Shown here piece by piece: positions 11,659 through 26,130 of a stretch of DNA of 64,000 bases. Every line of letters begins with the position of its first letter. The stretch's first letter is position 1. The DNA comes from Candidatus Saccharimonadota bacterium (GTDB lineage: Bacteria > Patescibacteriota > Saccharimonadia > Saccharimonadales > UBA4665). The translations under genes were made by a program, and so were the position numbers. The notes under the pieces were generated by a model. That model made no database searches. It had not been told where the DNA came from and saw nothing but the letters and a program-made list of their open reading frames with translations. The DNA lies in the NCBI GenBank assembly GCA_028286345.1, contig JAQBRT010000001.1, positions 248,001-312,000 of the forward strand. Direction: 5' to 3'.

Positions 11659-11958
11659 CTACTCGTTAAAGGGGTTATTGCGCGCTTGTTCAAACAGCGT
11701 TTGAACGCTGACGCTATTATCGCGCAGGTCTTCGAGCTGTTTCACGACTGCTTTATCAATCTTTGGGATATGAATAGCCGTTACTTCACTATTAACAGAA
11801 GTGTCGGATGGCTGGGCGCTGCTTAAACGGTTAATCCCGTACAGGGTGTAGCCATAGACAGCAGCAATAATAACCAAGAATGCAATTACCCGGTAACGGC
11901 CGGCGCTTTCTAGAGTGTTTAAAGCAGTCTGCTTAATATTTATTGGTTGTTTTTTCAT
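11659..11958 (-). CDS. Small membrane-anchored protein at the PilP position of the pilus operon
   Basis: The 99-aa protein has a single membrane segment (residues about 24-40) and a polar domain behind it with PKIDKAVVKQLEDLRDNSVSVQTLFEQARNNPFNE. It is the last gene of pilM-pilN-pilO and overlaps pilO by 4 nt. In many type IV pilus operons this position is taken by pilP, a linker between the inner-membrane complex and the secretin. This protein has no lipobox and the cell envelope may have no outer membrane, so PilP-like is positional inference only. Confidence 0.65.
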   Translation of the reverse strand: MKKQPINIKQTALNTLESAGRYRVIAFLVIIAAVYGYTLYGINRLSSAQPSDTSVNSEVTAIHIPKIDKAVVKQLEDLRDNSVSVQTLFEQARNNPFNE

Positions 11959-12605
11959 GGCTTTATGTAAATATCCAATACTAGGCTAAATGAAAACTTG
12001 TTGTGGAATGTGTTGTCGGGTTGGATGCTAATACTGCTAACTAATGCAGTTTGGCGGTTATGCTCGAGGGAGGACAGGAAGTTAATTAGCTGTGAATAGC
12101 TGGCCAAGGTGCTGGTGCTGCTGGTGATAGTTAGCTGTAGGTCGTAGACGCCAGGGATTGTTAGTACTGGTGTTAGTTGGGACAGTTGCGGGTTGGTGCC
12201 GCTGGTGGCTGAAGCACCGGCTACAGAGCCAGTGGCTGCGGTAGCGCCCTTGACTGGGGCAGCACCGTTACCAAGCGTCGAGGCAGGGAAGTTGATCGAA
12301 TCGAGTAGAATCTGGTTGTCACCGGCAATCTTAACAATCTGCCGAACAGCTTGGGCCTGGTTCTTATTTTCTGGGACAACTACCTTGGCAATATTATAGA
12401 GGTCAGTAGAGGCAGTGATATCTTTTTTAGCCTGCTTTAGGGCAGTTTCTTGGCGGCCAAGGGCATCAACTTTGGCTTTGAGGCCAACCAGCTTATCGGA
12501 CTCTTTCTTAAGTAGCACTTGGCCAACGTAGGTACCGCCAACGATACCCGTCATAAGCAAGATAACCAAAGCGCACATAACGTAGAAGCTTCGTTTGGCG
12601 CTCAT
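11955..12605 (-). CDS. pilO: Type IV pilus inner-membrane assembly protein PilO
   Basis: The 216-aa bitopic protein has a short cytoplasmic start, one membrane segment (residues about 7-28), a coiled-coil (KESDKLVGLKAKVDALGRQETALKQAKKDI) and a periplasmic-type alpha/beta domain (GVYDLQLTITSSTSTLASYSQLINFLSSLEHNRQTALVSSISIQPD), as in PilO. It would pair with PilN and connect PilM to the pilus platform. A Gly/Ala/Thr-rich linker near residues 110-140 is unusual but not disruptive. It overlaps both neighbours by 4 nt. Confidence 0.85.
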   Translation of the reverse strand: MSAKRSFYVMCALVILLMTGIVGGTYVGQVLLKKESDKLVGLKAKVDALGRQETALKQAKKDITASTDLYNIAKVVVPENKNQAQAVRQIVKIAGDNQILLDSINFPASTLGNGAAPVKGATAATGSVAGASATSGTNPQLSQLTPVLTIPGVYDLQLTITSSTSTLASYSQLINFLSSLEHNRQTALVSSISIQPDNTFHNKFSFSLVLDIYIKP

Positions 12606-13201
12606 GATTTCTTCCCTTGGTTTACAAACAGGAACGGATTGTTGGTGTTAAACAGGGCACGGAGATGTACGGTACAAGGGTAGTTTGGATCACGGTTGTT
12701 GTCGCTTGAACAGCTGACGTTATCAATATCAACTTTTGAGAATATCTGGTTTTTGGGGTCGGCTAGATTAACCTGAACCTGGGTGGCTGTTGTATAGCTG
12801 GTAGCGGTGGCACTGAGCGTTAGCCCGCCAGACACTTTGTTAATGTTGAGCGAGGTGAGGATGCTGCCGTTTGGCATATTGGAACCGACTTGGGTAATAA
12901 GTTTTGAGAAGAGCACTTCTTGGCCCAAGACCTGAACGGCTAACTTGAGACTGTTGCTAATGTCCTGGGCCTGCTTCTTAGTCTCATCCAGTTTTTCTTT
13001 CTTGAGCTGGGCTTGGGCTTGGCTGACCTGCCGAGAGTAATCTTTAATAGAGGCTTCCATGGTAACCAGGCCAAATGTAACGATCAAAACCAGGCCGAGT
13101 AGGCTAAAGAACAAGGTTGACGCCCACTTGCGGAGCATAACATTGCGCCGGGCATAGCCGTAGCTGTCTTTCAATTCTGGTGGCATGAGGTTGAGCATCA
13201 T
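12602..13201 (-). CDS. pilN: Type IV pilus inner-membrane assembly protein PilN
   Basis: The 199-aa protein starts MMLNLMPPELKDSYGYARRN, carrying the conserved N-terminal INLLP-like PilM-binding stretch (LNLMPPE). A membrane segment follows (about residues 29-48), then a coiled coil and a ferredoxin-like domain (SILTSLNINKVSGGLTLSATATSYTTATQVQVNL). PilN binds PilM in the cytoplasm and PilO outside the membrane. It overlaps pilM and pilO by 4 nt each. Confidence 0.9.
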   Translation of the reverse strand: MMLNLMPPELKDSYGYARRNVMLRKWASTLFFSLLGLVLIVTFGLVTMEASIKDYSRQVSQAQAQLKKEKLDETKKQAQDISNSLKLAVQVLGQEVLFSKLITQVGSNMPNGSILTSLNINKVSGGLTLSATATSYTTATQVQVNLADPKNQIFSKVDIDNVSCSSDNNRDPNYPCTVHLRALFNTNNPFLFVNQGKKS

Positions 13202-14280
13202 TTAAAGAGCTCCTTGGGCTTAGCCAAGCTAAGGCCAGCAACAGTGGCGTACATTGGTTTATCGGCTTGCGAAGGCGGCTGAAGCCCCTTGTAATTAAAC
13301 GACTGCCAAGGATCTATATGGCGAACAGCCAAACGGATGGCATTGGTTAAATATTCGCTCAGCCCGGGCATGTTGGCGCCGCCACCAAGGGTAACAATTT
13401 GGCTAATTGGCCGGTCGGAGCCGTAGCGCTCTTCGTAGTAGCGCATCATGCGGCGGATTTCTTTTACAATGTCTTGCAGGATGGGGTCGAGAGCTTTTGT
13501 AATCTCTGCCTGGCGCTTGCTTGGGCCAAGCCCATACTTGGTTTTAATAAGGCCTGCTTCTTGGTCAGTTACACCCAGGGCGGCCTGGATGCTATTGGTA
13601 AATACATCACCGCCACCTTGGACAGTACCAGTTACCATGACATGTTGGTCATAGATGCTGATGTCGGCTGACAACGAGCCAAAATCAATAATCACGGTAG
13701 CGATGTCACTGTGCTGGTCGGTCGAGAAAAGGCGGCCCGATGAACTGAGTGTTGGCTCAATTAACACTGGTTCAAGGCCTGTAATTTGGGCAAAGTCCAG
13801 ATACGAATCAACGATGGTTTTTGGAACGGCAACCACAAACAGCTCAATATTTTCAGCGTCTTCTTTAATAATTTCATAATCTAGGTACAGTTCTGCGAGT
13901 GGCATGGAGATGTATTGTTCGGCTTCGAGTTCAACGGCATTTTTTAGCTCTTTGGGCTTGAGTTTTGGCAGCTGCAATGACCTGGTGTAGGTGCGGTAAG
14001 CCGGAATGGCGAGGGCAGCGCGGCGGGTAGTGATATCGCCAATCAGGTGCTTATCAAATAGGTCAAAAGCTGCCTTGGCAATCACTTCTGGCTGGACAAT
14101 GACGCCGTCTGATTGGGCGGCTTTATCGAAAGTAGTAAAACCGTAGCCAATAACTTTTGGATGATGGGCCTTGCTCCCATCGGCCGAAATCTGCATGACC
14201 TTGAGCGAACCATGGCCAATATCCAACCCGAACAGGGGTTTGTCATGGAAAAATGATGATATTTTTACTGTTTTATTCAT
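13198..14280 (-). CDS. pilM: Type IV pilus actin-like ATPase PilM
   Basis: The FtsA-like PilM fold is visible: PLFGLDIGHGSLKVMQI (phosphate 1) near residue 15, VIIDFGSLSADISIY (phosphate 2) and IVTLGGGANMPGLSEYL (adenosine motif) near residue 290. The ATG at 14280 is chosen over the GTG at 14289 because GGTGG sits about 6 nt upstream of it. This gives 360 aa. A TATACT box at about 14313-14318 on the minus strand suggests a separate promoter for pilM-N-O. Confidence 0.93.
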   Translation of the reverse strand: MNKTVKISSFFHDKPLFGLDIGHGSLKVMQISADGSKAHHPKVIGYGFTTFDKAAQSDGVIVQPEVIAKAAFDLFDKHLIGDITTRRAALAIPAYRTYTRSLQLPKLKPKELKNAVELEAEQYISMPLAELYLDYEIIKEDAENIELFVVAVPKTIVDSYLDFAQITGLEPVLIEPTLSSSGRLFSTDQHSDIATVIIDFGSLSADISIYDQHVMVTGTVQGGGDVFTNSIQAALGVTDQEAGLIKTKYGLGPSKRQAEITKALDPILQDIVKEIRRMMRYYEERYGSDRPISQIVTLGGGANMPGLSEYLTNAIRLAVRHIDPWQSFNYKGLQPPSQADKPMYATVAGLSLAKPKELFK

Positions 14281-14343
14281 GCTGCCCACCGTAGGCTAAA
14301 CCTTTATGCTTAGTATAGCAGATAGTGCGGTAAATAACAGGGA

Positions 14344-16215
14344 TCATAACGTCGGGATATCGGCCGGGCAAGTGTTGGTGTAGCTAGTGCCGCTTATCGC
14401 CCATTTGCTGCGTAAATATTCTTGTATTGACTGGGTTTCAGAGCAGGTTAGGGCGTGGTCGTAGACGATCAGCTCAGCATAATCGCCATTAAAATAAGCG
14501 GTGCCACTGCCGGGCATGGCGCCGGTTCGTGTGCCCCCAAAGTACAGCTGGTCGATACCATAGGTATATGGGCTGCCGCTTGGCTGATAGTTGTCGGCTT
14601 CGGTGACCAATGCTCCGTTGGTGTATAGGAAACTATTAACTTTGGCGCTGTCCTGGATTTCGAAACGGCTGGCAAAGATGTTGGCAACATTACTACAGGT
14701 AGTGCAGGCGTAGCTTGTCCGGTAGACACCGGCGGTTGTGCCGGAGTAAATGCTTGATATGCCATTACCGGAACTGTTGCGTAGTAGGGCGATTATCGAG
14801 CTGCCGGCGGTTGTATCGTTATTAACGCCTGAGCTGGTGCCACTTATGACACGGCCATCAGTGGAGCTGGTGGAGTAATTTGGCTTAATTACGGCAAAGG
14901 CGGTCATTTCACGCTTGCCGGCCAGGGCGGTAGTTAGGCTGGACAACAAAGCACCGTTATTAAAGCGTACAATCGGTTTGCTATTGAGGGCATTATCGAC
15001 GCGCGTTGGCGAAGTCCCGTAGGTAAAGGCTGCATTGTTGCCGTTACCGGATTTATCAATCCACAAGCCAACACTATCACCAGCATCGGCCTGAGAAATT
15101 GTTGTGGCCGAATATGAAATGCTGAGCTGGTTACTGGCTTTGCTTAGGTGCCGGCTACCACTTCCGGATACATACTGGATAGCCAGTCCCAGCCGGCCGA
15201 CACTAGGGTCCCAGTTACTGTTGTTGATGATCTCTTGGACTATGCTCGTGACGTCATAGGTGGTGTTGTTGCCTGGAGGACAGTTGTTTTCAGATACAGT
15301 AGAAGACGCAACGGTATGTAGGTTGGCGGTTGCCAATGGTGTTTTTAGTTGGTTAGAGCCGCTTTGGGTGAACAAGTCAGGGCTGGGGTTGCTAGAAGTT
15401 TTATAAAAGCCATATAACTTGTGGGTTACAGAACCGCCGGCACCCGCCGGATTGGCACAGGCCAACGTCAAAGTTGCATTGGTAATGGTGGCGTTTTTAG
15501 GAACGCTGACGTTGGAATATACCAGACCGATGTTGAGGTATTTAGAAGCATTGGTAGTACAGATCGAGTTACTGAACTCAGCAGCATCACAGATGTGCAT
15601 CTCGAAGTCGTTGCTTTGCCACGAAGCGAGCGTCTGGGTACCGTTGTCAGCCCGCTCTTCAAGGGTGTCGCGGGTGGTATCACTGACATTGCCAAAGGTC
15701 GTGGTTGGCACGGCAGTCGTGGTAGAGGAACCGACTTTTTTGAGTGTTACATAATCGCTGGCATCAAGCCATACTACCGGAGCGTAGTTATCGGGGGTTT
15801 TACAGGTCGCAAAACTGTTGACTATTTCGGAGCGGATGTTAAAAACGTACCGGGCGCTGACAGAGTTTTTTGGCAGGTAGACGCTACCAGTCCCCTGGAT
15901 ATTCTTGGTGAGGCCATCAGCGGAGGTGCTTATAACGTCAGCTTTAAACGTCAAGCGGTACTTGCTGTTACTCACCAGGTCCGTTTCGGCGGTTCCGGTA
16001 TAGTTGCCGCAAGCAGCGTTATCAAACTGTTCCTGGGCGTAGTCAATGGCCGCCTTAGAGGCCATACGGGCCATTTGGGAGTACGATTGGCGATAGGTTA
16101 ACGTCAAGTTGTTACTGGCAGCACCCAGTACGGTATAGGCAGTAATAGCCATCAGCGCCATTAACAGGATAATGACCGGGAGGGCAAAGCCACGGCTATC
16201 GAGTTTACGGCTCAT
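14344..16215 (-). CDS. Large minor pilin (PilX-like) with a lectin-like LamG domain split by a second beta-sandwich
   Basis: The 623-aa protein has an N-terminal PilX-like membrane helix (residues about 10-32, RGFALPVIILLMALMAITAYTVL), which lacks the usual Glu5, then a pilin-like region up to about residue 140. From about 148 (VVWLDASDYVTL) a concanavalin/LamG fold begins. It is interrupted at about 195-375 by a DNRLRE-like domain (VPKNATITNATLTLACANP, YDVTSIVQEIIN, LGLAIQYVSGSGSRHLSKASNQLSISYS) and resumes with SVGLWIDKSGNGNNA to the end (YFNGDYAELIVYDHALTCSETQSIQEYLRSKW). This suits a pilus-tip adhesin. It overlaps the preceding prepilin by 4 nt. Domain names are by pattern, not by search. 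Confidence 0.75.
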   Translation of the reverse strand: MSRKLDSRGFALPVIILLMALMAITAYTVLGAASNNLTLTYRQSYSQMARMASKAAIDYAQEQFDNAACGNYTGTAETDLVSNSKYRLTFKADVISTSADGLTKNIQGTGSVYLPKNSVSARYVFNIRSEIVNSFATCKTPDNYAPVVWLDASDYVTLKKVGSSTTTAVPTTTFGNVSDTTRDTLEERADNGTQTLASWQSNDFEMHICDAAEFSNSICTTNASKYLNIGLVYSNVSVPKNATITNATLTLACANPAGAGGSVTHKLYGFYKTSSNPSPDLFTQSGSNQLKTPLATANLHTVASSTVSENNCPPGNNTTYDVTSIVQEIINNSNWDPSVGRLGLAIQYVSGSGSRHLSKASNQLSISYSATTISQADAGDSVGLWIDKSGNGNNAAFTYGTSPTRVDNALNSKPIVRFNNGALLSSLTTALAGKREMTAFAVIKPNYSTSSTDGRVISGTSSGVNNDTTAGSSIIALLRNSSGNGISSIYSGTTAGVYRTSYACTTCSNVANIFASRFEIQDSAKVNSFLYTNGALVTEADNYQPSGSPYTYGIDQLYFGGTRTGAMPGSGTAYFNGDYAELIVYDHALTCSETQSIQEYLRSKWAISGTSYTNTCPADIPTL

Positions 16216-16940
16216 TGGTTCAGCCTCCTGAGGGTTATGGTTGAGGTGGCGCTCACAGGTTCAGCGAAAGCCGTATCGGTTAGGGTTAAGTTGATGGCTA
16301 CCAGGGATGCCTGTTCGGGTGTGGTCACAACCGTGCCGGAGCTATTTTTGTACGTCACTGTCATGCTGCTGAGACGATCTGTTAAGAGGATATCGGCCGG
16401 GCAGCTGGGTGAGGCATTGGCAGCCGGGCATGTCTGCTTACGGAAACTGGTGCCACAAGTAGCCATGGTGCTTGGCGCCGTTACGATACGTTTGTAGAGG
16501 TTGGTGCCACTCGTGAAGATAATGATGTTCTCATAAAGCGGGTCATTTAATTCTTTGGTGCTTTGCGGCGAACAGCCAAGGGTATTTATGTATACCGCTG
16601 AACGGCTGGCTGAGCGGTGGCTGCCAGTCTCGGCCGGCGTGGAAATAATAAACTTCAGCGGGTTGCTCGAAGCAACCCAGCCACCGCTTGGGGCATAAGA
16701 ATCGGTTAGGCCGGTATTGAGGTCGCTAACAAATGCGTTGGCAAAGAAAACATCGTCTTGCAGGTTAAAAATTGCCGCTTGGGCAGTCACCTGGAGGTTC
16801 ACTTGGGTGCTGTTTTTGGTTAGCTCACCAAATTGCCGGAAGAGGTAGCTCATCATAAAAGCAATGACTGCCATCAGGATCGGACAAATTACCATTAGTT
16901 CGACAATGGTAAAGCCTAATTCGTTGCGGCTGCGTCTCAT
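16212..16940 (-). CDS. Minor prepilin (PilW/PilJ-like)
   Basis: A class III signal is present: RRSRNELG|FTIVELMVICPILMAVIAFMMSYLF, with Glu5 after the predicted cleavage site. The start is taken at ATG 16940, directly after the previous stop (16942), giving 242 aa; the longer in-frame extension overlaps the upstream prepilin and would bury the signal. Cysteines are frequent in the C-terminal part (TCGTSFRKQTCPAANASPSCPADI). It would be cleaved by a prepilin peptidase not in this window and join the pilus initiation complex. Confidence 0.85.
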   Translation of the reverse strand: MRRSRNELGFTIVELMVICPILMAVIAFMMSYLFRQFGELTKNSTQVNLQVTAQAAIFNLQDDVFFANAFVSDLNTGLTDSYAPSGGWVASSNPLKFIISTPAETGSHRSASRSAVYINTLGCSPQSTKELNDPLYENIIIFTSGTNLYKRIVTAPSTMATCGTSFRKQTCPAANASPSCPADILLTDRLSSMTVTYKNSSGTVVTTPEQASLVAINLTLTDTAFAEPVSATSTITLRRLNQ

Positions 16941-16941
16941 C

Positions 16942-17358
16942 TTAAAGCCCATTCCTCTGTATAAAGTCAGCATATTGGACGGTGCGCTGGGTATTGCCAC
17001 TGCCATATTGGATATTGACGACAATTTGCTTAAGGGTTGGCGATACGCTATTCACGTAGACGAGGGCGGTGCGTGGCTTGGGTACTGTGGTTGGTAATGT
17101 GCTAGAAAAGTCTTCAACCTGGACCAGGGTACCACTTGGTGACGTGCTGGGAAGGCTGGCAAACGGCGTGTTTTCATACGACTGGACTTTGGCAAAGGCC
17201 AGCTGGTTGGTACTGTTGAGGTCTTTTGCCATCTTATTGAGCTGCTGTATGGTGCTGAAGCTCGATGCAAAAGTTGTGAACAAAGTGGCAAGCATCACGA
17301 GCATGACAATTAATTCAACAACCGTAAACCCACCATCGTCCATATGTATTTCGCTCAT
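16942..17358 (-). CDS. Minor prepilin (PilV-like)
   Basis: The 138-aa protein begins MSEIHMDDGG|FTVVELIVMLVMLATLFTTFASSF, a prepilin signal with Glu5. A short globular domain follows. It is the first gene of the second pilus block: a TATAAT on the minus strand (17370-17375) and GGGAG lie directly upstream, just past the pilA terminator. It leads into the two larger minor pilins. Confidence 0.85.
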   Translation of the reverse strand: MSEIHMDDGGFTVVELIVMLVMLATLFTTFASSFSTIQQLNKMAKDLNSTNQLAFAKVQSYENTPFASLPSTSPSGTLVQVEDFSSTLPTTVPKPRTALVYVNSVSPTLKQIVVNIQYGSGNTQRTVQYADFIQRNGL

Positions 17359-17438: not shown

Positions 17439-17915
17439 CTAGTTCAGGCTGCTGATTGCGTAGGTCGACTGACCGTTGATAGTACCTTCGTAGGTAGCTG
17501 TCAAGGTGTACTTAGCACAGTTAACGTCGTTACCAGCACCGGCACAGCTGTTACCACTGGCGTCGGTTACTGCGTAGGCGTAAACCTTAGCTGCTGGAGC
17601 TGCGACTGGGTCGTTGCTCTGGGTTGGGTTTGATGGGTCAACGAGTGAGTTGAGGTCAAAGCCTTTCATGTTAGCTGCCAACCAAGTGTCGCTCTGCATG
17701 TCGGCGAGGTTTGGATAGTAACCGTTGTCGTTGTAGAAAGCTTCGAGCTTAGTTTGTAGGGACTTAAGGTCCGTCTGGCGCTTAGTATTACGTGCTTTGG
17801 CTTGAATGCCGGCGTAAGTGGTGATGACAAGCAATGCCAAGATACCGATTACGACGATTACGATCAAAAGTTCAACAATCGTGAAGCCTTTGTTCTGTTT
17901 CTTAAGTGAGATCAT
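17439..17915 (-). CDS. pilA: Major type IV pilin (PilA/PilE-like)
   Basis: The 158-aa prepilin has MISLKKQNKG|FTIVELLIVIVVIGILALLVITTYAGIQAKARNTKRQTDLKSL, a classic class III signal with Glu5 and the polymerising alpha-1 helix. The globular domain has a NGYYPN motif and a C-terminal disulfide pair (NSCAGAGNDVNCAKYTL). It is taken as the major pilin because it is a monocistron with the best promoter in the region, a strong AAGGAGG Shine-Dalgarno, a structured 5' leader and its own terminator. It lies between pilC and the minor pilins. Confidence 0.92.
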   Translation of the reverse strand: MISLKKQNKGFTIVELLIVIVVIGILALLVITTYAGIQAKARNTKRQTDLKSLQTKLEAFYNDNGYYPNLADMQSDTWLAANMKGFDLNSLVDPSNPTQSNDPVAAPAAKVYAYAVTDASGNSCAGAGNDVNCAKYTLTATYEGTINGQSTYAISSLN

Positions 17916-18052: not shown

Positions 18053-19336
18053 TTATCCGCCGATATTTTTACTCAAATTAGCAATCGGGCCCATGACGCT
18101 GGCGGCGATTAAACCAACGCCAGCGCCTAAGAATACGATCATAATCGGTTCGATAATCGCTGCCAGCCCGTCGATCATGACAGTGACTTCCTCTTCATAG
18201 AAGTCGGCGATTTTAGTCAGCACGGTATCGATTTGGCCGGTTTCCTCACCTACGAGCAGCATCTGCGCGACAATTGGCGGGAAGTGTTTGCTCTGGCTGA
18301 TTGGCTCACTGAGCTGCTTACCATTACGGACCTGCTCGGCCGCTTCTTTGAGCTCCTTTTCGATAACTTTGTTACCAAGGGCAGCGCCAGTCACTTCGAG
18401 GGCCTCTAGCACGCTTACTCCTGATGACATCAGTGAGGCAAAAGTGCGCGAGAACCGGGCAATGGCAATTTTAAGGATTATGACCTTAATAATAGGAATA
18501 CGCAGCAATAGGGCATGGAACTTGTACTTACCACTGGGTGTTTTGATGTAGCGCAAAGTATAAACGGTGATAACAGCAAATATGCCCATGAGCACGATAA
18601 GGTTTGGCAAGCGGTTCAATACTGGTATGGCACTCAGGCCGGGGATTGCTTTGACAATTGTAGCGTGGACACAGAAGTTACTAAACTTAAGCAGCGCTAC
18701 AGTGTAAACCGGCAGCTTGGCATTAGGGCCACCAAGGCTCAGCAGGATGGCGCCGATTTTTGGCACCACAAACAGCATTATCCCAAAGAAGGCCACCACT
18801 GTGACACTCAATATAACAGTCGGATACATCATGGCGCTCTTAATCTTTTTGCGGATAGAAGCATCTTGCTCGACCTGAATAGCCAGGCGGTTTAAGATTT
18901 CATCCAAAATACCGCCTTCTTCACCGGCGCGGACCATGTTAACGTAAACTTCCGAGAAGACGTTCGGGAACTTTTCAAAGGCGTCGCCCATGGAAATACC
19001 GCTTTCGACATCTTTGGTGATGCTAGCCAGGACCTCGCGCACGTAAGGGTTGTCGGAATCGTTTTGTAGGGCGGACAGGGAGCGTGCCAGGGGTACGCCA
19101 GCCGAGATCATGGTTGATAACTGGCGGGTGAAAATGACAAGGTCGGCGAGTTTAATCTTTTTCTTTTTGCCAAATAATGAGCCACCCTTAGACTTTTCTT
19201 TTTTGCCGGCTTCGATAAGTACCGGGTGCAGGCCTTGTTTCTGAAGGATTGCCAGCAGCGCCTGTTTGTTGGCAACTTCGCTGGTTCCGGAAACAGTTTT
19301 GCCTTCTTTGGTGGTAGCTTTATAACTAAATAACAT
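18053..19336 (-). CDS. pilC: Type IV pilus inner-membrane platform protein PilC
   Basis: The 427-aa protein has the two T2SSF domains of the GspF/PilC family. The N-terminal FSYKATTKEGKTVSGTSE is followed by the first domain (KLADLVIFTRQLSTMISAGVPLARSLSALQ), a membrane segment near residues 170-190, and the second domain (IARFSRTFASLMSSGVSVLEALEVTG). The C-terminal membrane segment is in EPIMIVFLGAGVGLIAASVMGPI. It couples the ATPase PilB to pilin assembly. It starts 2 nt after pilB. Confidence 0.95.
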   Translation of the reverse strand: MLFSYKATTKEGKTVSGTSEVANKQALLAILQKQGLHPVLIEAGKKEKSKGGSLFGKKKKIKLADLVIFTRQLSTMISAGVPLARSLSALQNDSDNPYVREVLASITKDVESGISMGDAFEKFPNVFSEVYVNMVRAGEEGGILDEILNRLAIQVEQDASIRKKIKSAMMYPTVILSVTVVAFFGIMLFVVPKIGAILLSLGGPNAKLPVYTVALLKFSNFCVHATIVKAIPGLSAIPVLNRLPNLIVLMGIFAVITVYTLRYIKTPSGKYKFHALLLRIPIIKVIILKIAIARFSRTFASLMSSGVSVLEALEVTGAALGNKVIEKELKEAAEQVRNGKQLSEPISQSKHFPPIVAQMLLVGEETGQIDTVLTKIADFYEEEVTVMIDGLAAIIEPIMIVFLGAGVGLIAASVMGPIANLSKNIGG

Positions 19337-19338
19337 AA

Positions 19339-21144
19339 TTATTCCTGGGCAGTAACGCGCAAAATTTCCTCAATAGTAGTCTGGCCGCGGAGTGCTTTTA
19401 TGAAGCCATCAAGCTGCATGGTTATCATGCCTTCTGCGATGGCTTGGTTTTCAATAACTTCGCTCGCGGCGCTAGTAACAATCGACTTCTGGATCTCAGT
19501 GGTGTTGTTTAGGATTTCGTAGATGCCGATACGGCCCTTGTAGCCGGTATGATTGCAGGCGTCACAGCCATCATTATGGGCCTTAAATAGGCGCTGGATA
19601 GCGGTGGCGCTGGTGCTTAAACTGTCCGTGGGACTGGCTTTGGCGGTAGTAGATTTGCCGATGCTGTCTTTTAGGGCTGATTCTTCTAACTCATGCATGC
19701 GCTTTATGCCGCCGTTATCACTCAGCTTGAACATCTTTTCAATTTCTTTAACAACAACTGCGTCCGGTTCAAAAGCCTCACGGCAATCAATACATAAGCG
19801 GCGCACAAGCCGTTGGGCAACCACAATCCGTACGGTGCTGGCAATCAGGAATGGTTCCACGCCCATATCCAGGAGACGCGGCAGGCAAGTAGCGGCATTG
19901 TTGGTGTGAAGCGTACTAAAGACGAGGTGCCCTGTTAGGGCGGCCTGGATGGCTAGGTCGGCGGTTTCACCGTCACGGACCTCGCCCACCATGATGATGT
20001 TTGGGTCTTGGCGGAGTAGGGCACGCAAGCCATTGGTAAAGGTCATACCGGCAATCGGGTTAACCTGGACCTGGTTGGCACCAACAACATGGTATTCAAT
20101 TGGGTCTTCAACGGTGGAGATGTTGACGTTTGGTGTGTTAAGCGAACTTAAAACGCTAAATAACGTCGTCGACTTGCCGGAACCCGTTGGCCCGGTCACT
20201 AGCACCATGCCGTGCGGCTGGATAATCGCCTGCTTTAGGTCAAGAAGCGCGCTGCCCCAGAAGCCGAGTTCGGTAAAGTCGGCTGGCTTGCTCGATTCGT
20301 TGAGGATACGCATAACCACCTTTTCACCATCGAGAATCGGCAGGGTAGAGACACGCAGGGCATAAAGCTGGCCGCTAACTTCAACTTTAAACCGTCCATC
20401 CTGTGGCGCTCGGTGTTCGTCAATTTTCAAATTACTCAAAATCTTGATACGGCTAACGAGGGCGCCAAGCAGTTTCCGCGGCAGTTTATTGGCTTCACGC
20501 AACAGGCCGTCGATACGGTAACGGACGACCACATAATCTTCGCGCGGCTCAATGTGGATATCGCTAGCGCCAGCCTTAACACCGTATTCAATAATAATGT
20601 TGACGGTTTGGGCGACGGGCGAATCCTCGGCGACTTCGCTTTCGTCGACGTCTTCAATTTCTTCAGCTGCATCTTCTGCGGCAATGACTTTTGTTAGCTC
20701 GCTGCTAATGTTGCCACGGTACTGGTCGAGGGCTGCCTGGAGCAAGCTCGAGGTAGTTATGTGTACTTTTATGTCGGTGCCAAGCTGCTTTTGCAAGAAG
20801 TTAAGCGCCTGAATATCATCCGGGTCTTCGACGGCAATGAGTTTGGTGCCTTTTTCTTCAACCCCAAACACCACGGCGTTATATTGCCGGGCAATACGCT
20901 CTGGGAGCAGCTTGAGGATCTCGTGCTTGATCTCTTTGGCATTGAGCTCGACAAATGGCACCTCGATCTCGTCGGCGTACATTTTCGTCAGTTCTTTTTC
21001 GGTCAGGAGGTTTTCTTTAATAACCAGGTCTTGAAGCGGCTTTTTCTCATCGGCTTCTTTTTGGCGCAAGCCCGTGATTTGTTCTTTAGTGAACTTACCG
21101 CTGTGGTTTAAGAGTTTTTCAACAAGTGAGTCTGGAATACGCAT
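19339..21144 (-). CDS. pilB: Type IV pilus extension ATPase PilB
   Basis: The 601-aa protein has an N-terminal MshEN-type domain (residues 1-150), a linker rich in acidic residues, and the GspE core with Walker A GPTGSGKSTTL, the Asp box ISTVEDPIEY, Walker B NIIMVGEVRDGETA and the His box HLVFSTLHTNNAA. The zinc site is LCIDC...CDACNHTGYKGR, present in extension ATPases. A roughly 55-residue Ser/Thr/Lys-rich insertion lies between the two cysteine pairs, longer than usual. No pilT retraction ATPase is in this window. Confidence 0.96.
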   Translation of the reverse strand: MRIPDSLVEKLLNHSGKFTKEQITGLRQKEADEKKPLQDLVIKENLLTEKELTKMYADEIEVPFVELNAKEIKHEILKLLPERIARQYNAVVFGVEEKGTKLIAVEDPDDIQALNFLQKQLGTDIKVHITTSSLLQAALDQYRGNISSELTKVIAAEDAAEEIEDVDESEVAEDSPVAQTVNIIIEYGVKAGASDIHIEPREDYVVVRYRIDGLLREANKLPRKLLGALVSRIKILSNLKIDEHRAPQDGRFKVEVSGQLYALRVSTLPILDGEKVVMRILNESSKPADFTELGFWGSALLDLKQAIIQPHGMVLVTGPTGSGKSTTLFSVLSSLNTPNVNISTVEDPIEYHVVGANQVQVNPIAGMTFTNGLRALLRQDPNIIMVGEVRDGETADLAIQAALTGHLVFSTLHTNNAATCLPRLLDMGVEPFLIASTVRIVVAQRLVRRLCIDCREAFEPDAVVVKEIEKMFKLSDNGGIKRMHELEESALKDSIGKSTTAKASPTDSLSTSATAIQRLFKAHNDGCDACNHTGYKGRIGIYEILNNTTEIQKSIVTSAASEVIENQAIAEGMITMQLDGFIKALRGQTTIEEILRVTAQE

Positions 21145-21146
21145 AA

Positions 21147-21719
21147 TTAACCCCGGTAAATATCCTTGGCTGTGCCGCAGTTAATACAATATCCGGCATG
21201 AGTTATTGGGTAATTCTGGTGCGCTCGGCAGGAACCGCTAATACAGTAGTAGACCGAGCTATAGCTATCCCAGCTGCTGTCGACCCATTTTTCTTTCGGG
21301 AAATTCTTTTTACAGGTCGCTTCGTCACCGGAATCACAAAAGCGGATACTTACCTGGTAGGTTTGCGCATAACCATTAGCCGTGTCAGCTGGCCAGTTCT
21401 CCCAGTCGTAGTAACTGCCAGGCCATGGGGCATTGGGCCAGTTATTGTTTTGGCCGTTAGCCTGGATAAACTCCATGAGGCTTGCTGGTATGCCACGGCT
21501 TTGGTCAGCCGGGTAGCTATTGTATTTGGCCACGTATAGCTGAACCGCGTTGCCCATAGTGTTTAGCTCGGACACAGAACGGCTAAAATAGGTACGCTCA
21601 TGCCAGTTTGGAATAACGGTGGTAGCCGAAATAATTGCCAGTATACCCATAACCGAAATAACGATGATAATTTCGACGAGAGTGAACCCACCACTTAGTA
21701 CTTTTGTGTCTTTGCCCAT
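21147..21719 (-). CDS. Prepilin-like protein at the head of the pilB-pilC operon
   Basis: The protein (190 aa from ATG 21719; a GTG at 21722 is an alternative) has KVLSGG|FTLVEIIIVISVMGILAIISATTVIPNW, a prepilin signal with Glu5. The mature part is rich in Trp, Tyr and Asn with several cysteines (FCDSGDEATCKKNF, YYCISGSC, HAGYCINCGT). The cysteine-rich end might form disulfides or bind a metal. It is 2 nt upstream of pilB and probably a minor pilin. Confidence 0.82.
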   Translation of the reverse strand: MGKDTKVLSGGFTLVEIIIVISVMGILAIISATTVIPNWHERTYFSRSVSELNTMGNAVQLYVAKYNSYPADQSRGIPASLMEFIQANGQNNNWPNAPWPGSYYDWENWPADTANGYAQTYQVSIRFCDSGDEATCKKNFPKEKWVDSSWDSYSSVYYCISGSCRAHQNYPITHAGYCINCGTAKDIYRG

Positions 21720-21919
21720 CACTGGTTATTCTAACAGTTCGTTGTTAAAAACGTAAGCGTATTTTATTCGGTCGCCAAGTAGCGTAAAATATTAAATCCA
21801 ACTTAACTTTTGCCATATTATGCGCGCTTATGCTTGCCCTAGAGACAGCAGAGAGCCTAAGGTGGTAAAATAATAGTAACGGGTGGCTTAAGACGGGTAA
21901 CAACTGACGAGGAGATTAT

Positions 21920-22945
21920 ATGGCGAAAGCAGAAGCAACAAAAAAGACTGATGACGCGGCAACTGACGGTAAATCCAAAGCACTTGGTTTAGCGCTTGAG
22001 ACCATCGAAAAGCAATTTGGCAAAGGCTCAATTATGAAGCTCGGCGATTCTCAGACCGTTGCTGTAGAGACAGTATCAAGCGGTAGTATCTCGCTTGACT
22101 TAGCTCTCGGTGGCGGCATTCCTAGGGGCCGTATTGTGGAAATTTATGGCCCAGAATCATCCGGTAAAACCACACTTACCTTACATGTCATTTCCGAGGT
22201 GCAACGTGGCGGCGGCACGGCAGCTTTCATTGATGCCGAGCACGCGCTTGACCCCTCATATGCCAAGCGCATCGGCGTTGACGTCGACAACTTACTATTA
22301 AGCCAGCCGGACAACGGTGAGCAGGCGCTCGAAATTGTCGAGACCCTAGTCCGCTCCAACGCCGTAGACATTATCGTTGTTGACTCCGTGGCCGCCTTGG
22401 TACCACGTGCCGAAATTGAAGGCGACATGGGCGACAGCCACATGGGCCTCCAAGCGCGTTTAATGAGCCAGGCACTCCGTAAGCTGACCGGTGTTATTTC
22501 GCGCTCTAACGTCACGGTTATTTTCATTAACCAGATCCGTATGAAGATCGGTGTCATGTTCGGCAACCCAGAAACCACAACTGGGGGTAACGCCCTCAAG
22601 TTCTACGCCTCGGTGCGCATGGACATCCGCCGCATTGGCCAGATCAAGCAAGGCGAAGCCGTCGTTGGCAACCGCACCCGCGTTAAGGTTGTCAAAAATA
22701 AGATTGCGCCGCCATTCCGCGAGGCCGAGTTCGATATTATGTACAACCAAGGCATCTCCAAATCTGGTGACATTCTTGATCTAGCAGTTGCTAAGGACAT
22801 CGTCGAAAAAGCCGGTGCCTGGTTTGCTTACGGCGAGGGTAAGATTGGCCAGGGCCGCGAAGCCGCCAAGACCTACCTCGAAGAAAATCCCAAGGTCATG
22901 GACGAAATCGTCAAAAAAGTTCTCACTGCCACTAAAGAGACATAA
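21920..22945 (+). CDS. recA: Recombinase RecA
   Basis: The 341-aa protein is a full-length RecA: Walker [11 protein letters not shown] near residue 75, the MAW region [17 protein letters not shown], Walker [21 protein letters not shown], loop L2 [35 protein letters not shown], and a C-terminal domain. GAGGAG precedes the ATG at good spacing. No LexA-type box was recognised in the upstream 198 bp. The gene is followed by a YdjM-like gene and recX on the same strand. Confidence 0.98.
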
Positions 22946-22990: not shown

Positions 22991-23461
22991 ATGACCGCAA
23001 CAAACCACTTCATTACTGGTGCTTTGATAGCAGCAACTGTGCAGCGGCCGCTCTTAGCGTTGCCGCTGGCTTTTGTTTCGCACTTCGCACTCGATGTTAT
23101 TCCGCACTACGGATACGGCACTATGCCGCTCAAAGAGCGAGATCAAAAGAAGCATTTCATATTAAAACAGGCTGTCGATATTTACTTCGCACTTGGTTTA
23201 TTTTGGCTCTTACCTTTCTTGCTGCGGGATCGTCAAGCACCGATAGTGACCGCTCTCTGCATGTTCGCTGCGTTTGTGCCAGATGCTATTTGGTCTGCTC
23301 AGTACGTTATAGCGCAACGCAGGGGCGGCGCGTATAAGGAGCCTAGTGCCTTTAACCGTTTCCACAAGGCTATCCAATGGTGTGAGAATTCATGGGGCAT
23401 CTACATTGAAATTATCTGGTTCGTTTTAATCGCACTCGGCATTAGACATATAGCGGTATGA
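22991..23461 (+). CDS. YdjM-like / membrane-bound metal-dependent hydrolase family protein
   Basis: The 156-aa membrane protein has the pattern of the YdjM/PF04307-type family: NHFITGALIAA near the start, SHFALDVIPHYGYG near residue 30, and FVPDAIWSAQY near residue 95, giving conserved His/Asp residues beside hydrophobic segments. The molecular activity of the family is not known. It is placed between recA and recX and overlaps recX by 4 nt, so it is transcribed with recombination genes. In E. coli ydjM is under LexA control, which makes the position suggestive. Confidence 0.65.
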   Translation: MTATNHFITGALIAATVQRPLLALPLAFVSHFALDVIPHYGYGTMPLKERDQKKHFILKQAVDIYFALGLFWLLPFLLRDRQAPIVTALCMFAAFVPDAIWSAQYVIAQRRGGAYKEPSAFNRFHKAIQWCENSWGIYIEIIWFVLIALGIRHIAV

Positions 23462-24066
23462 AAATCACGGCCATCAAAACCCAAGTTAAGCGGGCAGGGC
23501 GCTATTCGATATTTGTCGATGGCGCCTACTCATTTTCTTTGAGTGATATGGCGCTGCTAGAAAGCAAGCTCGTAGCCGGGCAAGAACTTACACAGCAAGA
23601 GGTTAAGGACTATAAACAGCTGTCTGATGACGATAAATTGTATGGCCGCGTTTTGCAATATTTGGCCTTGCGCCCCCGTTCGGAATGGGAAGTAAAAACT
23701 TATATGGAGCGCAAAAAGGCCTCCCCTGCCCTTGTCACATTAATACTTAACAAGTTAAGTATTAATGGTTTATTAGATGATAGGAAGTTTGCAGAATCAT
23801 TTGTGCGGGACCGCCAACTGCTCCGCCCTACTTCCAAGCGCAAGCTGACATTAGAACTTCGTAAAAAAAATGTTCCCAGTGATATCATCCAAGAGGTTAT
23901 TGTCGAAGGGGGCGGTGAAGACAGCACTGCCCTGCACGAACTTGTGGCCCGCAAACGCAAGCAGACCAGGTACCAAGATGACCTCAAACTCATGCAATAC
24001 TTGGCGCGCCAAGGCTTTGGTTATGGCGACATCAAAGCTGCCTTGCAAGTAGAATCAGAAGACTAG
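23458..24066 (+). CDS. recX: RecA regulator RecX
   Basis: The 202-aa protein has the three-helix repeats of RecX: YGRVLQYLALRPRSEWEVKTYMERK, then SINGLLDDRKFAESFVRDRQLLRPTSKRKLTLELRKKNVP, and DDLKLMQYLARQGFGYGDIKAAL. A beta-rich N-terminal piece (MKITAIKTQVKRAGRYSIFVDG) is typical of Gram-positive-type RecX. It modulates RecA filaments. Its end overlaps the convergent PRC-barrel gene by 4 nt. Confidence 0.92.
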   Translation: MKITAIKTQVKRAGRYSIFVDGAYSFSLSDMALLESKLVAGQELTQQEVKDYKQLSDDDKLYGRVLQYLALRPRSEWEVKTYMERKKASPALVTLILNKLSINGLLDDRKFAESFVRDRQLLRPTSKRKLTLELRKKNVPSDIIQEVIVEGGGEDSTALHELVARKRKQTRYQDDLKLMQYLARQGFGYGDIKAALQVESED

Positions 24067-24581: not shown

Positions 24582-24702
24582 GCTTTTAGTATAGCGCTCC
24601 TCTGCCCCTTACACAGCGGAAATCTTAACTAAGTTCAGAATTAAAGTATTTTCATTACGCACATGCTTGCCCCTAGCATGGGCTGCTTCTACAATCCGGC
24701 AC

Positions 24703-26130
24703 ATGAATAACTTATCCCTTGTCCAGCGGTTAGTTGTAGCAACCCTTGCCTTGTTGGCAAGTTGCCTGAGTATTGTCCAGGTTAGGGTGCATGCCGATAG
24801 CGCACCGCCACAGATAGTTATCAACCAATTTAAGATGACGAGCAGCAATGGCCAGTTCTTTATGCTCTATAACACCACCTCCGGCCCGCTTGATATGAGT
24901 AAGTTTGAGCTTGAGTATTTTAATAATTTCGACATCGCTAAATCGACCAGTAGTAAGTTTATCGGCCTAAGTGGCACGTTGCCAGCTCACGGCTACTATT
25001 TGGTCAGTGATGCCACTACGGCCGTTTGTTACCAGGCAGTTGTCGATTCGATATCACTTGGGCTTTCCACCACTTCGGGCATGATTGAGGTATTAAGCTA
25101 CACCCAAAGTAGTCCCGGGGGCTCAATCATGCCTACCCTCCAAGATTATGTGGGCTGGTCTAAAACAGCGGCTAGCGGTGCCCAAACATTGCCAACCAAC
25201 GCCAATGCATTTTTGCAGCGCCAGCCAATGGATGTAGCAAACAACCCCAATATTAGTGGCCCGGGCAATGGTAGCTGGCAGCAAGTTCAGCCCGATCCAG
25301 CCAACCCTTGTAAGATCACTACCGTACCAATCGGTAGCGGTACGCCAACTGCGGTGCCGGGCGGTGGCCAGTTGTTACCGGCATCACAACCGTCCGCCAC
25401 AATTATTAACCTGGATTTGGGCATAGCAACAGCACCAAGCTTACCGGCCGCCGATATTGGTTTAAAAAGCCCGCTGATTACCGAGGTTTTGCCTAACCCT
25501 AGCGGTACAGCCAATGACGGTACTGATGAGTTTATTGAGCTGTATAACGACAACGATGTGCCTTTTGACCTGAGTGGTTTTAGTTTACAAACTGGCTTAA
25601 CCTCGCTGCATACCGTGAACTTTCCGGATGGCACTCAGCTTGCAGCTAAATCGTACACTGTCTTCTACTCAAAAATCCTGGCACTGAGTTTGAGTAACAC
25701 AGCCGGCCAAGCAATTTTGATTGACCCAACCGGTGCTGCAATTAGCCAAACTGACAGTTATGGCACGGCCAAAGACGGCCAAACCTGGGCACTGGCAAAC
25801 GGTAAGTGGTATTGGACGACCAGCCCAACACCGGGGGCAGCCAATGTCATAATCTTGCCTGTAAGTAGCAGGGCGTCCGCAAAAACCAAGGCTAAAGCAG
25901 CCACATCGGGCGCTAAAACCACACCGCTCAAGGCAACAGCTAAGTCCGGCACGGTACTGGCTAGCAACAGCGCAAAGCCGCTGGACAGAGTTCCAATTCA
26001 TGGTGGTGTACTTGCCCTAGTTGCCGGCCTCGCGCTACTATACGGTGCATATGAGTACCGTGCAGACCTTAGAAACAAGTTCTTCCAGCTTAGGAGCTAC
26101 CTTAGCGCTCGCCGAGCGCATCGGGTCTAG
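24703..26130 (+). CDS. Secreted, membrane-anchored lamin-tail domain protein
   Basis: The start at 24703 gives a signal peptide (MNNLSLVQRLVVATLALLASCLSIVQVRVHA) and lies 7 nt after TACAAT (24690-24695). Two lamin-tail (LTD) beta-sandwich domains follow: PPQIVINQFKMTSSNGQFFMLYNTTSGPLDMSKFELEYF and PLITEVLPNPSGTANDGTDEFIELYNDNDVPFDLSGFSLQT. Then comes a Lys/Ala/Thr-rich stalk and a C-terminal membrane helix (GVLALVAGLALLYGAYEY) with a basic tail. This is a surface-anchored protein, possibly adhesive or nuclease-associated as other bacterial LTD proteins; no catalytic domain is seen. The 3' end overlaps tsaE. Confidence 0.8.
   Translation: MNNLSLVQRLVVATLALLASCLSIVQVRVHADSAPPQIVINQFKMTSSNGQFFMLYNTTSGPLDMSKFELEYFNNFDIAKSTSSKFIGLSGTLPAHGYYLVSDATTAVCYQAVVDSISLGLSTTSGMIEVLSYTQSSPGGSIMPTLQDYVGWSKTAASGAQTLPTNANAFLQRQPMDVANNPNISGPGNGSWQQVQPDPANPCKITTVPIGSGTPTAVPGGGQLLPASQPSATIINLDLGIATAPSLPAADIGLKSPLITEVLPNPSGTANDGTDEFIELYNDNDVPFDLSGFSLQTGLTSLHTVNFPDGTQLAAKSYTVFYSKILALSLSNTAGQAILIDPTGAAISQTDSYGTAKDGQTWALANGKWYWTTSPTPGAANVIILPVSSRASAKTKAKAATSGAKTTPLKATAKSGTVLASNSAKPLDRVPIHGGVLALVAGLALLYGAYEYRADLRNKFFQLRSYLSARRAHRV

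Follow-up and report, generated by a model that had tools for sequence, protein, structure and literature searches.

Saccharibacteria are a group living on other bacteria, and host choice by episymbiotic Patescibacteria has so far been poorly understood. TM7 pilins vary, and host specificity has been proposed as the cause (PMC7739484). Modular pilins in general are known, including PF13385 and vWA types, with 264 architectures listed (PMC8179133). The minor pilin PilC of S. sanguinis (PDB 7oa8/7oa7) is a proven glycan-binding pilin in a tip complex, with sialylated glycans as its ligand (PMC9934059), and PilB of S. sanguinis is a vWA pilin (PMC8179133). In Nanosynbacter lyticus TM7x, deletion of PilX2, a large-headed minor pilin of the recA-linked pilus, halves host binding, and most T4P-2 pilins are encoded away from the recA-linked locus (PMC12206443). 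The DNRLRE family of beta-sandwich domains includes the alginate-binding CBM96 (PMC9971899).

The window analyzed here, 64,000 nucleotides from a genome of Candidatus Saccharimonadota, encodes a minor pilin, K, that can be set beside each of these proteins. Like S. sanguinis PilC, K is a putative tip-complex minor pilin in which a short pilin carries a predicted ConA-like lectin head and one further domain, Ig-like in PilC. The two proteins do not match in sequence, and they differ in that PilC has Glu5 and carries its two extra domains in tandem, whereas K has no Glu5 and carries a sandwich nested in the lectin. With the GspK/PilX group of HIJK minor pilins, K shares its place as the third I-J-K gene, the absence of Glu5 and an N-terminal profile match; GspK, however, has its pilin sheet interrupted by an alpha-domain (PMC8179133), whereas K has a large C-terminal beta head. 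PilX2 of TM7x is, like K, a minor pilin of Saccharibacteria with an enlarged C-terminal head and recA-linked machinery (PMC12206443), but its head is an RCC1 beta-propeller and its gene lies in a separate locus. K has no vWA head and in this is unlike S. sanguinis PilB, the design of which recurs in vWA-headed K pilins of family f6 (L018, L010, and L223). DNRLRE domains of the K type are placed either within a pilin's LamG domain or, in relatives, as part of the I pilin. No description of a nested LamG/DNRLRE pilin or of I-J-K cassette replacement was found in the literature searched, most subscription journals being outside the search.

The pilus operon and the K pilin gene

The source genome is 0.90 Mb in size and 98% complete. 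In the window, the I, J, and K genes follow one another with overlaps on the reverse strand. The I pilin (GspI/PilV position, 16942..17358) and the J pilin (GspJ/PilW position, 16212..17024, true start probably within the ORF) both have Glu5, and the ATG of K (14344..16215) overlaps the J stop. The triad is flanked on one side by a probable major pilin (17439..17915, N_methyl E 7.6e-8), the PilC/GspF platform protein (18053..19336, GspF E 1.6e-102), and the PilB assembly ATPase (19339..21144, PilB E 6.8e-163), followed by an additional pilin with a GspG-like N-terminus (21147..21722). On the other side lie PilM (13198..14289, PilM_2 E 6.9e-33) and the PilN and PilO positions (12602..13201 and 11955..12605), which were assigned from operon order, with no reliable family match for the former and no family match for the latter. 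All of these genes are on the reverse strand. The operon adjoins recA (21920..22945, forward strand, RecA E 3e-170) and recX (23458-24066, E 2e-32), as does locus two of TM7x, and this layout suggests that the locus is of the T4P-2 type of TM7x.

As the preliminary description had proposed, the pilus operon encodes a 623-aa PilX-like protein, here found as an ATG ORF in the K position of the I-J-K triad, and this protein is without Glu5. It starts with MSRKLDSRG followed by FALPVIILLMALMAITAY, a prepilin-type signal with cleavage between G9 and FALPV, and the mature pilin has Pro as residue 4 and Val instead of Glu as residue 5. Residues 1–66 (16018..16215) hold this leader, the FALPV stretch, and the alpha-1 helix, as judged from the sequence, the GspK profile, and a structure model, and residues 67–138 (15802..16017) form the pilin beta-sheet body, with strands at 74–132 in the model. 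The NCBIfam GspK profile matches residues 8–66 with an E value of 5e-5 and 22.9 bits, against a cut-off of 130. K is GspK-like by operon place and N-terminus, yet it lies outside the NCBI GspK family proper. It has the features of a modular pilin, namely a prepilin motif and a pilin module together with domains foreign to pilus biology (LamG_3 and DNRLRE). Glu5 is absent from every K pilin that could be parsed, in all of the head classes described below. Pro at mature residue 4 (codon region at 16174-16188 in the window) was seen in 9/9 parsed nested-head pilins and 2/2 pilins of class h3 and is rare in the other classes; PilA of S. sanguinis, which likewise lacks Glu5, is reported to have Pro4 too.

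A DNRLRE domain nested in a LamG/ConA-like head

K is a modular pilin with a nested head, in which a DNRLRE domain lies inside a LamG/ConA-like sandwich. We hold this to be practically certain because family matches, an alignment at W149 and W385, and an AlphaFold2 model with Foldseek searches agree. The first part of the LamG/ConA-like domain (VVWLDASDYVTL), at which uninterrupted LamG homologues align with W149, spans residues 146–168 (15712..15780). The inserted DNRLRE (CBM96-like) beta-sandwich, with strands at 184–375 in the model, spans residues 180–372 (15100..15678), and the rest of the LamG/ConA-like domain, from LWIDKSGNGNNA to EYLRSKW, spans residues 376–608 (14392..15090), all on the reverse strand. 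The preliminary description had placed the start of the LamG fold at about residue 148 and had it broken by about 180 residues of a DNRLRE-like domain before resuming; profile matches, alignment, and model bear out this arrangement, with the insert present but longer, at ~190–205 residues (about 170/180 to 372).

When K was scored as a single sequence, the GspK, DNRLRE, and Laminin_G_3 matches were all under the curated cut-offs, and the assignments were therefore tested by other routes. Pfam Laminin_G_3 (PF13385) matches residues 434–593 (E 0.005, 17 bits against a cut-off of 27.6), and NCBIfam DNRLRE (NF033679) matches residues 234–334 of the full-length protein (E 0.0025), a value that falls to 1.3e-4 when the insert (residues 180–372) is searched alone, at 22 bits against the curated 34. 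Homologous inserts searched in the same way matched NF033679 in 14 of 16 cases, with a best E value of 1.8e-6. Sequence searches of solved structures with the protein and with an insert profile gave no match.

Uninterrupted homologues of the LamG domain are found in Verrucomicrobia, Bacteroidetes, Alphaproteobacteria, and others, and the whole-domain alignment of the K head to these LamG proteins of other phyla is clear. The spacing between WxDA and WxDKSGN is about 13–31 residues in the uninterrupted proteins and 236 in K (W149 and W385). Unguided MAFFT aligned all of the uninterrupted homologues but one to K positions 149 and 385 and opened a gap across the insert. Removal of the insert in silico shifted the Pfam LamG E value from 0.0051 to 0.0037, which is no clear gain because the Pfam match leaves out the first strand. 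Alignment with the uninterrupted relatives gives better evidence for nesting.

AlphaFold2 run with 7 alignment rows gave a poor model (pLDDT 67), and an alignment of 63 rows was used instead (pLDDT 88.3, pTM 0.69). The resulting model has a long helix at residues 11–66, the pilin sheet at 74–132, and a head that is almost all beta. It agrees with nesting, and the one continuous fold unrelated to LamG that had been named beforehand as the opposing outcome did not appear. A Foldseek search with the model returned S. sanguinis PilC second (7oa8, E 1.1e-6, with 7oa7 also listed), which is the best pilin match to K by fold, along with ConA-like glycan binders including CBM40 and pentraxins (E 1e-6 to 1e-4). 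On this model, the K head holds a ConA-like sandwich fold.

Divergence of the head and the pilin part

Among 12 full-length nested-head proteins, the pilin body has a mean identity of 52%, the insert one of 38%, and the second LamG part one of 37%; among the 22 closer pairs the corresponding values are 71, 54, and 51%. The pilin body is the most conserved globular segment of K among homologues, and in these comparisons the entire head outpaces the pilin part in divergence, with the insert no faster than LamG. The idea, raised earlier, that the insert might be specially divergent as a fast-changing, host-linked part is rejected, because it changes at the rate of the LamG half. One relative (G199, L225:6894-8798) has an insert 67% identical to that of the window K and a second LamG half only 45% identical, a hint of recombination within the head.

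Distribution and turnover of K heads

The nested K pilin, full or fragmentary, was found in ~15 of 393 genomes of the order (Saccharibacteria), in about ten families. No full-length nested K was found outside the order in the phylum sample or among the named genomes, in which full-length relatives of K come nearly all from Candidatus Saccharibacteria. An uninterrupted LamG pilin of the K kind was not found among the Saccharibacteria examined. Insert-free LamG proteins of other Saccharibacteria (G127 and L235) were considered as pilin counterparts and turned out to be non-pilins; the uninterrupted LamG proteins at L235:3238-4620(-) and at loci in G001 and G131 resemble tail-fibre or repeat surface proteins.

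For a comparison of heads, the region upstream of PilM was taken from 94 genomes, and K was read where I, J, and K are adjacent. The K slot holds at least five kinds of head, which are switched even inside one genus. These mutually unrelated classes are h0 (34 genomes, mostly 450–510 aa and repeat-rich), h1 (11 genomes), h2 (the nested LamG/DNRLRE head), h3 (2 genomes), and the vWA head of family f6. In genomes of family f35, open frames of about 430–1350 aa carry K-like pilin N-termini, which suggests further, larger head types.

On a tree built from PilM and PilC of 53 genomes, h2 requires 8 changes for 8 genomes and all classes together require 14, in parsimony counts that do not separate gain from loss, and a single h2 clade is rejected (log-likelihood 463 lower, AU p 1.7e-6). 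On the J pilin tree the head classes need 6 changes, the h2 genomes and the vWA genome form one starred clade, and a clade of h2 alone is not rejected (p 0.06). Because the J tree tracks head type and the machinery tree does not, I, J, and K are inherited together, as a set replaced on a motor with another history. The I-J-K tip complex behaves as an exchangeable cassette, with the motor conserved. What these data add to the earlier work is that the head is exchanged together with the rest of the I-J-K cassette and that the motor is retained.

For the scatter of the nested head itself, we lean slightly toward an old, vertically inherited head that was replaced or lost many times in other lineages, rather than recent transfer of the nested cassette. 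The deep splits of h2 mirror the machinery tree, with G070/G072 basal and with G061/G071/G095 and G000/G003/G036 each grouped, and the nested head may therefore be old and repeatedly replaced; the data do not show that it was itself transferred recently. Vertical inheritance does not cover every case, however, since the sister genomes G003 and G009 (PilM 80%) have an h2 and an h1 head, respectively, species of genus g2 have h0 or h1 at the same place (PilM 76% identical), and K of G009 is 63% identical to K of a g2 species. Different heads in sisters, together with this identity, mean that transfer is needed for at least the replacing cassettes.

The DNRLRE module in K and I pilins

In G166 and G159, two species of one genus with LysS 84% identical, the cassette follows lysS at the same position. 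The nested head is found on K of G166, where the I pilin is short. In G159 the head of K is of the vWA kind, and the I pilin, of 512 aa, combines a DNRLRE domain with a galactose-binding-like one (PF22633, E 2e-7). Between G166 K and G159 I, the DNRLRE domains are 38% identical (E 8e-36), and the match between the two K proteins is confined to the pilin part. Inside one genus, the DNRLRE module changes subunit, lying in K in one species and in I in the other. I-position minor pilins of ~510 aa at L223:5914-7452, L229:5824-7380, L230:7559-9106, L231:5499-7007, and L011:502-2103 have a discoidin-type galactose-binding-like domain and a DNRLRE domain, ahead of the last pilin strands, and lie beside a vWA-headed K.

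A proposed role of the K head in host contact

In the mechanism we propose, the pilin part of K would assemble with I and J at the pilus tip, where K, without Glu5, would take the topmost place. It would display there a two-sandwich head, with the DNRLRE/CBM96-like domain in the loop after the first LamG/ConA-like strand, and this head would most likely make the first contact by binding glycans on the surface of the bacterial host or of another cell. As a whole, the reading of K as a GspK/PilX-like tip pilin of the recA-linked pilus, with a nested head for glycan contact, is likely. A location at the tip, to which the I-J-K triad, the missing Glu5, and precedent point, is highly probable. Glycan binding, suggested by both folds and by the PilC and CBM96 precedents, is a reasonable expectation, against which it counts that LamG and DNRLRE domains have structural roles too. 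Host recognition, for which lifestyle, the TM7x data, and head turnover argue, we consider evenly balanced; heads turning over on a conserved motor are as expected for a recognition element. The tip location and adhesin role put forward in the preliminary description are supported by analogy, with S. sanguinis PilC and TM7x PilX2.

It is possible, if rather unlikely, that the head targets something other than a host, such as extracellular polysaccharide or other surfaces, and serves biofilm life rather than host recognition. This would fit the binding of alginate by CBM96 (PMC9971899), the many LamG relatives of K in non-episymbiont bacteria, and the fact that the genomes here are MAGs without known hosts, but every cultivated member of the Patescibacteria is an obligate episymbiont, and in TM7x the effect of T4P-2 is on host binding and not on motility or competence (PMC12206443). 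A mainly structural head, which would cap or stabilize the tip complex or prime assembly with no particular ligand, is improbable, because, although GspK-type pilins cap and prime filaments (PMC9934059) and DNRLRE domains are found in S-layer proteins (PMC9971899), priming should need the pilin part alone, which is common to all head classes (residues ~4–138 are matched in many relatives), and a common structural duty leaves unexplained why heads are unrelated across classes and switch within a genus.

Since relatives keep the same pilus motor under quite different heads, the head of K is a good and precise candidate for the element that determines what the cell attaches to. We suggest tentatively, with rather less than even confidence, that Saccharibacteria may choose or change hosts by swapping the whole I-J-K tip complex of their recA-linked pilus. 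The motor would be conserved, the cassette would come with one of several heads (nested LamG/DNRLRE, vWA, repeat-rich, propeller, and others), and domains would even move between tip subunits. Close relatives with different heads are natural pairs in which the host-range idea becomes directly testable.

The same genome has a second pilus locus (L190) with its own PilB, PilT, PilC, PilM, and pilins, which resembles T4P-1; either pilus may be the one that contacts the host, and this counts against the explanation preferred here. Beside PilM of this second locus, L190:10606-14007(-) encodes a 1133-aa, probably exported protein without an NCBIfam match, a candidate surface component of the second pilus. 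Near the pilus locus of the window, positions 24667-26130 on the forward strand encode a probable surface protein in which two stretches match the lamin tail domain (PF00932, E 1.8e-22) and a membrane segment lies at the C-terminus.
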